Shown here: one piece after another, positions 1,619 to 32,318 of the stretch
How the letters are laid out: each line of letters opens with the position of its first letter
Numbering within the stretch: the first letter of the stretch is position 1
Origin: a virus
Virus record (IMG/VR): IMGVR_UViG_3300020204_000007
Span: 105,060 to 169,059 of that record
Reading direction: 5' to 3' (one strand)
DNA: 64,000 nucleotides
The notes under the pieces: model-generated
What the model was told of the DNA's origin: nothing
The model's database searches: none
What the model saw: the letters and a program-made list of their open reading frames with translations, nothing else
Translations under genes and position numbers: made by a program

Positions 1619-1645
1619 ATATCGGAACAACCAAATCTAACTTTA
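1619..1645 (-). promoter_or_regulatory. Sigma-28-type promoter
   Basis: TAAA (1645-1642 on the minus strand), 16 nt, then CCGATAT (1625-1619). It drives the genes at 1415-1597 and 1160-1399. Promoter plus leader through the ATG is nearly identical to the plus-strand copy at 3248-3298. Confidence 0.75.
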
Positions 1646-1700
1646 GGGGTTTTTTATTTGTCGAATATCATTTTTTATATGGCAAATTAGTCTATTAAGA

Positions 1701-1709
1701 TGCTATAAT
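1701..1709 (+). promoter_or_regulatory. Extended -10 promoter (TGC TATAAT)
   Basis: A perfect TATAAT (1704-1709) is preceded by TGC, the extended -10 form, with no convincing -35. No coding gene lies downstream before 2189, so it may produce the RNA suggested at 1716-2095. Confidence 0.45.
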
Positions 1710-1715
1710 AGAAGT

Positions 1716-2095
1716 AACATCTACTCATTTCGCCCTCATAAATTGGGGGTTTTTCTGTTTACGGCATAAAAAAAAGAAGACTTTTAAGATGTAGCGTCTT
1801 GGGAGTAGTCAAGATGCACCTAGGTTGAAGTCACTTCCAGACGTTATTCCTAAGACGTTACGCCCAGAATAATAACGCTTCAAAGCGCTTAAATGAATCG
1901 ATTAGATTGTTTGCCTCGATGTTAGGTGCATTACCACCTAATGGAATCTGCTGTTGGGTTAGAACTCCTAAAAGAATAAAGGCCGTTCCGCTATGACCCA
2001 ATGTGTACACTAATAATGTGTTGCAGTATTCTCGAACATATCCCTTAGCCCCTCTGTATTTATATTACTAGACGCCATAATTATGATTCGCAATT
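1716..2095 (+). ncRNA. Candidate structured non-coding RNA (gene-free region)
   Basis: About 380 bases without a credible gene, starting just after an extended -10 promoter. The following helices can be drawn: a short CCC/GGG hairpin followed by TTTTT (1732-1754), which could stop transcription early; AAGAC/GTCTT (1777-1781 with 1796-1800); CGTTATTC with GAATAATAACG (1842-1849 with 1867-1877); CGCT/AGCG with a TCAA loop (1876-1887); TTAGGTG/CACCTAA (1922-1941); and TTGGGT/ACCCAA enclosing 1960-1995. It does not fold as a tRNA and I do not recognise an RNA family. The density of perfect short helices is what argues for structure; function unknown. Confidence 0.35.
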
Positions 2096-2108
2096 TATTA
2101 TTTTCCAC

Positions 2109-2135
2109 TAAAGTTTGATTTGGTTGTTCCGATAT
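2109..2135 (+). promoter_or_regulatory. Sigma-28-type promoter
   Basis: TAAAGTTT (2109-2116), then CCGATAT (2129-2135), 16 nt between TAAA and CCGATAT. The -35 is the exact E. coli FliA consensus. Its position rules out translation starts upstream of about 2140 for the next gene. Confidence 0.75.
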
Positions 2136-2188
2136 GGAAATGTAGGGCAGCAATGGTAACGAGTCCTATAAATGAGGGGGGAAATATT

Positions 2189-2482
2189 ATGATGCACAGA
2201 GGGATTACAATTCTTAGTTTGACCAACGGTAATAAGCTCTTGTTGGTTGGTCGTCCAGATATTTGTTGGCTAGTTCTTGATAAGAACGGTGACCTGCTTG
2301 GAGATTTTGATCCCAAGGTTCACGGCAGTGCTACGCAGTATCTTGGACATACTTCACTAGCTAAATTGAGCAGTGAGGGGGTGGCGGTATCAGGGTCATT
2401 GGGAATGGCTGTGATGGAGAAAATGGCTTTAGCTGATGTGACCCCGTATTTGGAGAGCAGGGCAGGTAAGAAGGTTCCTTGA
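2189..2482 (+). CDS. Hypothetical protein, 97 aa
   Basis: An in-frame reading opens earlier, at 2120, but that overlaps the promoter. ATG 2189 follows GAGGGGGG at good distance and is preferred. The N-terminal half reads as beta strands (ITILSLTNGNKLLLVG, ICWLVLDKNGDLLGDF) and the C-terminal half as helix. First gene of the transcript from 2109-2135. No known family. Confidence 0.6.
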   Translation: MMHRGITILSLTNGNKLLLVGRPDICWLVLDKNGDLLGDFDPKVHGSATQYLGHTSLAKLSSEGVAVSGSLGMAVMEKMALADVTPYLESRAGKKVP

Positions 2483-30271: not shown

Positions 30272-30367
30272 ACAAAATATGCTCCGGTGGGTATATTAGT
30301 ATGTAGCAGGGCAAACAACTCAAAGACAAACAAAAACCTTAATGATTTAAAAATATATTTTTGGATA

Positions 30368-30412
30368 TAAAGTTAGATTCCAAAGCTCCGATATGTAGGT
30401 GTTGGCAATAAT
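30368..30412 (+). promoter_or_regulatory. Sigma-28-type promoter with 5' hairpin
   Basis: TAAA (30368-30371), CCGATAT (30388-30394). Leader GTTGG/CCAAC hairpin around CAATAATGC (about 30400-30418), then AAGGAGTACAAC to ATG 30435. Confidence 0.8.
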
Positions 30413-30434
30413 GCCCAACAATAAGGAGTACAAC

Positions 30435-31541
30435 ATGAGTCGTTTTGATAATATTTTCCTCGCCCATCACCGCACAAAGTTGCCATTGATTTTGTGGGGT
30501 TCTTCCGGCTACGGCAAATCCTCTACAGTTAAAGGTTTTTGCCAACGTCACAATTACCGCCTTGTTGACAAACGTACTGTGTTTATTGATCCGCTTGAAA
30601 TTCAATTGCCAGTTAAGAATGAAACCGAACACGTTGTTGATTTGTGGCCTGCTCGTTGGCTCCATGAACTTTGCAAAAGCAATGAACCTACCGTCCTGTT
30701 TTTGGATGAGCTTAATCGTCCTAACAGTCTCCAAACACTTAATATGTTGACTCAGTTGCTGCTTGACCGCGAGTTGAACGGTATCCGACTTCCTGAGAAT
30801 GTGTTGGTAATTGCTGCGGGTAACCTTGACACTGAAGATACTGGTGTACAAGAACTTCCCGATGCAGTCATTAACCGCTTGACTCACTTGGTTTTTGCTC
30901 CCGATGAGTTTGAAATTATGGGCAATATGCAAAGTAAACTTGCACAAGAAGCCCTTAAACTCAATCCTAAAATTGTTGGCAAACCCGGTCTTCCTGAACT
31001 TAAACTGAAAAATTGTCCACGCCAAATTGATGCTGCGGTTCAGTTGTGGGAAACTGAACTACTTAATGAGGAGGAACTCGCTCTTGTATGTCGCGGTCGT
31101 TTAGGCAATGAATCCGGCAATATTCTTGCCAGTACGTTGATCCAAATTAAACGCAAAGAAGAATTTAAGCTCCCACGCAAAGTTTTGCCTGAACTGTTCG
31201 AGAAAATTTCCCAATGCGAGCAGGAAGGTATGATCATTGAAATTGTTTCGTTGTTCAAATCCGAGCTACAGTCGCATGAAGGCAAACGTACATTGAAGAA
31301 ACTTGAGCGGCATATTTCTGATTACTTGCTGCAATATGGTTCGCCTGAGCTTGCTCGCTCCATGCAAGAAGCTAAGTTTGCTTTCCGCTATGACCAAACT
31401 GAGTTTCCGGTGGATAAAGACAACAATCCGTTCAAAGATATGCGGCCTGAAAAAGAAGGAGCCGAAGTTAAAGATACTGGTTTGCCGTGGCAGCTCTATG
31501 CTTTGAAGCTTGGTAAGCTGTCGCCAAAAGATCGCTCCTAA
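30435..31541 (+). CDS. MoxR-type AAA+ ATPase, 368 aa
   Basis: Walker A GSSGYGKS (22-29), Walker B VLFLDE (87-92) with a following NRP, sensor-1 AAGN, and a candidate arginine finger in AVINRLTHLVF. The MoxR group of AAA+ chaperones usually works with a VWA-domain partner; that partner is encoded at 32347. ATG 30435 follows AAGGAGTACAAC. A strong terminator lies 30 nt after the stop. Codons are more balanced in G+C than in nearby small genes, suggesting a conserved, well-expressed gene. Confidence 0.85.
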   Translation: MSRFDNIFLAHHRTKLPLILWGSSGYGKSSTVKGFCQRHNYRLVDKRTVFIDPLEIQLPVKNETEHVVDLWPARWLHELCKSNEPTVLFLDELNRPNSLQTLNMLTQLLLDRELNGIRLPENVLVIAAGNLDTEDTGVQELPDAVINRLTHLVFAPDEFEIMGNMQSKLAQEALKLNPKIVGKPGLPELKLKNCPRQIDAAVQLWETELLNEEELALVCRGRLGNESGNILASTLIQIKRKEEFKLPRKVLPELFEKISQCEQEGMIIEIVSLFKSELQSHEGKRTLKKLERHISDYLLQYGSPELARSMQEAKFAFRYDQTEFPVDKDNNPFKDMRPEKEGAEVKDTGLPWQLYALKLGKLSPKDRS

Positions 31542-31571
31542 TAAGAGCGGTGTGTGTTGTACCCCTTCTCT

Positions 31572-31602
31572 GCCCTGTCCGTGTTACACGGGCAGGGCTT
31601 TT
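31572..31602 (+). terminator. Strong rho-independent terminator
   Basis: GCCCTG T CCGTG TTA CACGG G CAGGGC (31572-31598) followed by TTTTGATT. Eleven pairs with one T-G mismatch. It isolates the MoxR gene from the transglycosylase. Confidence 0.85.
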
Positions 31603-31616
31603 GATTCGAGGTTTTT

Positions 31617-32318
31617 ATGAAAATGTTTCCTGTTTTATTGACCACTGTTTTAGTCGCTTCTAATGTTGCATTTTTTCATTTGTTTCAGTTTGAAAAAGAA
31701 AAAACTTTTTCTCTTCAACAACAAGTACAAACAAGCGAAGAAAACAATGCGCGGATATTAAAAGAACAAAAAGAAAAAACACAATTTATTGAATTTGTGA
31801 GTACTGCTATTGCTCTTGCTGCTCCTAAGTCATCCGAATCCAAAAATGCTTATCTAGGTTCGCAAATTGTTAGAGTTGGTTTAGACTCGTTTAGCGATAA
31901 AGAAGAACGTGAAACATGGGTTGCAATTTTAGCCAACGAAAGTCGATTCAACCCAAAAGCTAAATCACCTGTGGGTGCTATTGGTATCGGTCAAATTATG
32001 CCTAAATCTGCAAAATGGTATGCAGAAAAATGTAACCTGCCCACTGATTTTACCGATGAAGACCTGTATCTTGTTGAAATAAACCTTACTATCTCGGCCT
32101 GCGCATTCAAAGAAATGCTTAAGAATGTAAATAATTCTAAAATTCTTGCTCTTATTTCATATAATGCAGGTCAATTTTCCAAAGATCTAAAACGTGTAGA
32201 GCAAATGGCAAATATCAATCAAGAAACTGCCAATTATGTCACAAAAATCACTCGGTTTTTAGAAAAAGTGCGCGACAATCCTGCTATTAAGTTAGATCCC
32301 AAAACTTCCGATAAATAA
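31617..32318 (+). CDS. Membrane-anchored lytic transglycosylase (SLT), 233 aa
   Basis: One N-terminal membrane helix (VLLTTVLVASNVAFFHLF), a charged coiled-coil stretch, then an SLT domain: catalytic Glu108 in NESRFNP, GAIGIGQIMPKSA, ALISYNAGQF and ETANYVTKI. It would cleave peptidoglycan glycan strands to 1,6-anhydro ends. Candidate roles are local wall opening or lysis. Start follows CGAGG at 31617. The last codons are formed by the promoter of the next gene. Confidence 0.8.
   Translation: MKMFPVLLTTVLVASNVAFFHLFQFEKEKTFSLQQQVQTSEENNARILKEQKEKTQFIEFVSTAIALAAPKSSESKNAYLGSQIVRVGLDSFSDKEERETWVAILANESRFNPKAKSPVGAIGIGQIMPKSAKWYAEKCNLPTDFTDEDLYLVEINLTISACAFKEMLKNVNNSKILALISYNAGQFSKDLKRVEQMANINQETANYVTKITRFLEKVRDNPAIKLDPKTSDK
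32287..32314 (+). promoter_or_regulatory. Sigma-28-type promoter, 17-nt spacer
   Basis: TTAA (32287-32290), 17 nt, CCGATAA (32308-32314), lying inside the last codons of the transglycosylase. Drives the VWA gene at 32347. Confidence 0.7.

Follow-up and report, generated by a model that had tools for sequence, protein, structure and literature searches.

A repeated, putative promoter element of sigma-28 type, often followed by a hairpin at the predicted transcript start, in the accessory region of a phage contig

Phages are generally thought to start out with the housekeeping sigma factor of the host, or to supply one of their own. For the promoter early stem-loops (PeSLs) of T4-type phages, the work of Arbiol in 2010 and of Comeau in 2014 is said to have found a promoter for the host's housekeeping sigma-70 and a stem-loop that acts as terminator. 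PeSLs are repeated cassettes of early promoter and stem-loop in the variable accessory region of these phages (PMC4503421), and phage promoters of Alphaproteobacteria are reported to be under the host regulator CtrA (PMC9437464). The cellular promoters of sigma-28 (FliA/SigD) have the consensus TAAAGTTT-n11-GCCGATAA in E. coli (PMC2859248), and in attack-phase Bdellovibrio bacteriovorus a FliA consensus, TTAAG-N16-CCGATA, is found in 92 of 140 attack-phase promoters (PMC3627812). Here we describe an element with the architecture of a sigma-28-type promoter that is repeated, oriented and conserved in a window of 64,000 nt of viral DNA (IMG/VR record IMGVR_UViG_3300020204_000007; G000:105060-169059 of a 169,059-base contig, the rest of which was also scanned), with a hairpin at the expected transcript start of many copies.

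The pattern TAAA-N15..17-CCGATA has 17 matches in the contig, all within the window, against none for the reversed pattern in the whole contig and a chance expectation of 0.63 (mean; maximum 3 in 30 runs of first-order Markov sequence of the same composition). The sites with a 16-nt spacer listed in the original prediction proved real when each was re-read, including the one at 10845, where the spacer has diverged and both boxes persist. A position weight matrix (PWM) scan of the whole contig recovered the known sites and 27894(-) (TTAAGTTAGA), and nothing else. With this copy, a -35 variant, and with the copy at 32287, whose 17-nt spacer was likewise borne out, sub-family 1 comprises 19 elements. 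A looser scan found a sub-family 2, TTAAGTTTACC-N11-CCGATA, with six members that are 28 nt long and have a spacer 2 nt longer (G000 102167+, 103452+, 103950+, 104382+, 105322- and 105960-). Four of these lie just outside the window, and the two inside are the variants that had been placed at 235-262 and 873-900 (exact limits in Table 1). The supposed degenerate site at 58498, TAAAGTTT...TTCCGAATAG, carries an extra base within the -10 box and was left out of the count.

Both sub-families together amount to 25 elements, all at 102-138 kb of G000 in the early/accessory part, and pattern and PWM scans found no element of either sub-family in the structural/replication half of the contig; to call the family phage-wide, as had been done, was thus too broad. 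A plausible start codon lies 15-54 nt downstream of nearly all sites, and in 10 of the 25 copies the stop codon of the upstream open reading frame (ORF) is the TAA of the first box. The copies at 13571/14006 and 15444/16528 form two pairs, each with the whole leader in common, which suggests that promoter and leader were duplicated together recently. Small cassettes of gene, promoter and leader would have been duplicated and dispersed in this way through the accessory, presumably early, region.

Written as octamers, sub-family 1 reads T(A/T)AAGTT(A/T)-N11-(T/G)CCGATA(T/A/G). In all 25 copies the -35 box matches E. coli TAAAGTTT at 6-8 of 8 bases; the -10 box matches GCCGATAA at 6-8 of 8, with CCGATA invariant, and both boxes combined match at 12-15 of 16 positions. 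The octamers are 11 nt apart, as in the E. coli FliA consensus, in 18 of the 25 copies; the distance is 12 nt in one copy and 13 nt in the six of sub-family 2.

The hairpin had been missed in the original prediction. With a stem defined by at least 5 Watson-Crick pairs, 14 stems were found downstream of CCGATA among 38 elements from this phage and other contigs, and 13 of the 14 begin at offsets 6-9, at a distance of 7-10 nt from that box. This phage has 10 stems at these offsets, against 0.23 expected and at most 2 in 300 shuffled sets, and the ten are not all independent events because some copies share ancestry. The stems vary between copies (TTGTAAGGA, TGTAGGA, TGTAAGC, GCGAGG, TGCAGG, TGTAGGC, ACAACC and TGTTGG in this phage; TGTGGGA, AGGGGGG and AAGGAA in the relative G008) and yet pair, so pairing has been kept while the sequence changed. 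At the E. coli aer promoter, transcription by sigma-28 has been mapped to start 6 bp beyond the -10 octamer (PMC2859248), and the hairpins sit about where sigma-28 would begin transcription. On sequence grounds, the simplest reading would be that the transcripts begin with the hairpin, and this evidence is independent of that from the boxes.

PeSL cassettes are the closest known architecture (PMC4503421), also being repeated units of promoter and stem-loop between accessory genes, with an early timing that we would expect here too. The conserved boxes differ in being sigma-28-type and not sigma-70-type, as if the sigma factor had been swapped, and so does the stem-loop, which lies here at the predicted 5' end, before the leader and ribosome site, with no T run after it, and is not an intrinsic terminator.

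The elements also occur in related contigs. In G010 (L059), whose ATPase is 89% identical to that of this phage, the element TTAAGTTAGAACTAAAAGCTCCGATAAG, followed by a hairpin unlike the one here, stands at the same place in the divergent intergenic region; a further element with a longer spacer (L059:3103), like that of 32287, precedes the orthologue of the 574-aa gene. Five elements occur in G008 (86% identity in the terminase), and two of these precede orthologues of genes that bear an element here. In both G008 and G010 the boxes are kept before orthologous genes and the remaining sequence has diverged. G006 and G007 share distant protein similarity only and have several elements each, one of them directly before a related AAA-ATPase gene. 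The motif itself led to G008, G006 and G007, so that one site per contig is subject to ascertainment. A good TTGACA-17-TAATAT is present as well within some of the sigma-28-type sites of L149 (G006) and L150-L152 (G007). Among cultured phages, Myxococcus phage Mx1 comes nearest by terminase, portal and sheath (28-33% identity), and no such sites turned up in the 150 kb of it checked.

Box sequence, spacing, orientation, hairpin position and conservation in relatives together give good support to a sigma-28-type promoter architecture. We consider it likely, judging from these features of the DNA, that the elements are phage promoters read by RNA polymerase with the host's flagellar-type sigma-28 (FliA/SigD family); of the FliA-type reading in the original prediction, the architecture stands, whereas use by sigma-28 itself is something we infer. 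The -35 box would be TAAAGTT and the -10 box CCGATA, with 11 nt between the octamers (12-13 nt in some copies), and transcription would start about 7-9 nt downstream of CCGATA. In about half of the copies the transcript would open with a short hairpin, presumably guarding the 5' end from decay, and in the remaining copies the ribosome site would usually come right after the start. The set resembles the class 3 flagellar promoters of E. coli and Salmonella in boxes, in 11-nt octamer spacing and, as predicted from the hairpins, in the start position (PMC2859248), and differs from them in belonging to a viral genome, in its 25 copies and two sub-families, and in that many copies have a hairpin at the predicted +1. 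Further differences weigh against a sigma-28 reading: T, and not G, precedes CCGATA in most copies, a conserved GA after TAAAGTTA is absent from the cited sigma-28 consensus sequences, and the spacer of sub-family 2, at 13 nt, is 2 nt above the E. coli consensus. Two cultured Bdellovibrio phages, phi1402 and phi1422, are also without the sites, which counts against a general rule for Bdellovibrio phages.

The same promoters could be read by a phage-encoded sigma factor of sigma-28-like specificity, as had been suggested, and we regard this as improbable. SPO1-type phages use their own sigmas and have a portal recognisably similar to the one encoded here, and one protein of the distant relative Mx1 matches a phage sigma family. 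However, neither Sigma70_r2 nor phrog_351 matched in six frames of the whole contig, which may be incomplete, setting it apart from regulons of the SPO1 gp28 or T4 gp55 type, and no homologue of the Mx1 sigma is detectable in the contig. A 188-aa protein (L012:12973-13539 (-)) gave a sub-threshold Sigma70_r4 match (a region-4-like helix-turn-helix), but it has no region 2 and its structure model is of very low confidence (predicted local distance difference test, pLDDT, 39); it is possibly a transcription regulator. It has conserved cysteines and is kept in two relatives. Since the searches of the phage turned up no region-2 sigma domain, the host's sigma-28 is the likelier reader.

The conserved sequence might act in the mRNA, as an intercistronic processing or translation signal, which seems to us very improbable. 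Co-directional genes do flank most copies, with the upstream stop codon at the start of ten of the 25, and on inspection several copies have a CUCC that could base-pair with the Shine-Dalgarno sequence downstream. Nevertheless, no co-directional gene lies upstream of the 30368 copy or of its orthologue (L059:1196), both of which stand in a divergent region, so that read-through cannot supply RNA there; the boxes match sigma-28 promoters in both halves and in spacing, the hairpins start after the conserved part and not inside it, and an Rfam search gave no match. We likewise give hardly any credence to ordinary sigma-70 promoters (-35 TTAGAT, A/T-rich -10 after CCGATATG) that look like sigma-28 promoters by chance: several copies have A/T-rich hexamers (TATAGT, TAAATA) after CCGATA and the distant contigs G006/G007 show the good sigma-70 match at the same place, but CCGATA and AAGTT persist while the would-be -10 region varies between copies and orthologues, and no TTGACA/TATAAT is conserved across the phage copies.

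The attack-phase FliA promoters of B. bacteriovorus are alike in consensus, in their many copies and in controlling many non-flagellar genes (PMC3627812); they differ in being cellular. The attack-phase consensus makes a Bdellovibrio-type predator an attractive candidate host. In a blind scan of species genomes, TWAAGTTAGA-N9-TCCGATA occurred in 37 stretches, nearly all within ORFs; a few look intergenic, among them a promoter-like match in a Bacteriovoracaceae genome. In the class of that genome, TAAAGTT-N13-CCGATA occurs in 75 of 97 genomes, with at least 147 sites against 16 for the reversed control, and in the class of G012 (Alteromonadaceae) in 24 of 94 genomes, with 34 sites against 13. 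This shows that the class of Bacteriovoracaceae is rich in sigma-28-type sites, but does not imply that it contains the host, and the TCC and GA signatures of the phage are not specific to it. A capsid search of cellular genome contigs gave no relative, and neither did a terminase search, run without a positive control, of 369 genomes of the phylum of G011, to which the Bacteriovoracaceae genome belongs. We consider a predator host quite possible, though short of probable.

Sigma-28-type sites are enriched in other viral contigs as well. In a viral contig collection, TAAAGTTT-N12-CCGATAAG matched at least 120 stretches, compared with 29 for the same pattern reversed, and 57 of the 98 sites examined from the stretches of this and another scan looked promoter-like. 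In 1.08 Mb of viral stretches matching the consensus there were 35 further TAAAG-N15-CCGATA sites against 2 reversed. This enrichment suggests a class and not one oddity. A search for cultured relatives of two other contigs with sigma-28 arrays gave only short, patchy matches or none. The viral contigs L185, L186, L187, L188 and L190 share TTAAGTTTACCCTTGACAARTGCCGATA and then TATATTATATA or similar, apparently sigma-28-type boxes that overlap a sigma-70 promoter. That no phage had been described in this way, as originally stated, agrees with our searches of the open-access literature on FliA/sigma-28 promoters in phages, which gave no description of a phage using this promoter class. The CtrA promoters are alike in linking phage genes to a factor by which the host regulates cell cycle and motility, and differ in that CtrA is a response regulator, whereas here an alternative sigma factor would be at work (PMC9437464).

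Table 1. Predicted promoters, predicted hairpins and other repeats. Positions are window coordinates unless a locus is named.
Feature	Position	Strand	Remarks
Sub-family 1 promoter	2109..2134	+	TAAAGTTT-N11-TCCGATAT; related element in G008 (-3300) before orthologous gene
Sub-family 1 promoter	3248..3273	+	
Sub-family 1 promoter	5173..5198	+	ahead of ORF 5219-5530
Sub-family 1 promoter	6011..6036	+	TAA doubles as stop of upstream ORF
5'-terminal hairpin	6043..6062	+	TGTAGG..CCTACA
Sub-family 1 promoter	7190..7215	+	
5'-terminal hairpin	7222..7241	+	TGTAGGC..GCCTACA
Sub-family 1 promoter	8839..8864	+	TAA doubles as stop of upstream ORF
Sigma-28-type promoter, diverged spacer	10845..10870	+	-10 box GCCGATAG
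Sub-family 1 promoter	12177..12202	+	
Sub-family 1 promoter	13571..13596	+	leader identical to that of 14006 copy
Sub-family 1 promoter	14006..14031	+	
Sub-family 1 promoter	15444..15469	+	entire cassette and leader duplicated at 16528
Short 5' hairpin	15477..15490	+	TGCC..GGCA, 4 bp, under 5-bp threshold
Sub-family 1 promoter	16118..16143	+	
Sub-family 1 promoter	16528..16553	+	
Short 5' hairpin	16561..16574	+	TGCC..GGCA, 4 bp, under 5-bp threshold
Sub-family 1 promoter	19491..19516	+	follows dCMP deaminase ORF
Sub-family 1 promoter	21071..21096	+	
5'-terminal hairpin	21105..21122	+	ACAACC..GGTTGT
Sigma-28-type promoter	30368..30393	+	divergent intergenic region, before AAA-ATPase gene; orthologous element L059:1196
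5'-terminal hairpin	30400..30420	+	TGTTGG..CCAACA; relative's stem sequence differs
Sigma-28-type promoter, 17-nt spacer	32287..32313	+	TTAA; before 574-aa gene; L059:3103 at orthologous place has same longer spacer
Sub-family 1 promoter	27869..27894	-	TTAAGTTA variant
Sub-family 1 promoter	1620..1645	-	related element in G008 (+3680) before orthologous gene
Sub-family 2 promoter	236..263	-	TTAAGTTTACC-N11-CCGATA
5'-terminal hairpin	210..229	-	TTGCAGG..CCTGCAA
Sub-family 2 promoter	874..901	-	
5'-terminal hairpin	849..866	-	TGCAGG..CCTGCA
Palindrome copies	L014:3330-3343, 3378-3391, 3808-3821, 4290-4303, 4903-4916, 4951-4964		G000 103.3-105.0 kb, just left of window
ACAGTTGGCTTTATATAA(A)TATGGGGATATATA copies	L013:7119 and L010:5514	minus	G000 87119 and 25514

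Two other repeats were seen in the contig. A perfect 14-bp palindrome, AACAGAGCTCTGTT / AACAGAATTCTGTT, has six operator-like copies among the sub-family 2 promoters, and ACAGTTGGCTTTATATAA(A)TATGGGGATATATA (approximate) has two copies ahead of genes in the half that carries no sigma-28 sites, where they may represent a second class of promoter. The accessory region also holds 2OG-Fe(II) oxygenase-like and Mom-like DNA modification genes (window 4559-5152, 10203-10847), given which the phage DNA may be modified. The phage further encodes a DNA polymerase III alpha-like polymerase, a GroEL-like chaperonin and a ribonucleotide reductase (L010:6181-9099; L011:10973-12580; L012:2112-3779), and a 1637-aa protein with a C-terminal C1q-like domain (window 53527-58440 (-)), possibly a receptor-binding or tail fibre protein.

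One tentative picture, which we think unlikely as a whole, would be that of a phage of a Bdellovibrio-type host, or of a different host whose sigma-28 regulon is expanded, that expresses accessory/early genes from attack-phase sigma-28 promoters and others from an A/T-rich class, splitting its programme between the free-swimming and growing stages of the host, with sigma-28 promoters a widespread, undescribed class in environmental phages. If host sigma-28 does read the elements, the accessory/early genes would be under the control of the host's physiological state (swimming, dispersal or attack phase) and infection of motile cells would be favoured, so that a link between infection and the motility state of the host is plausible.

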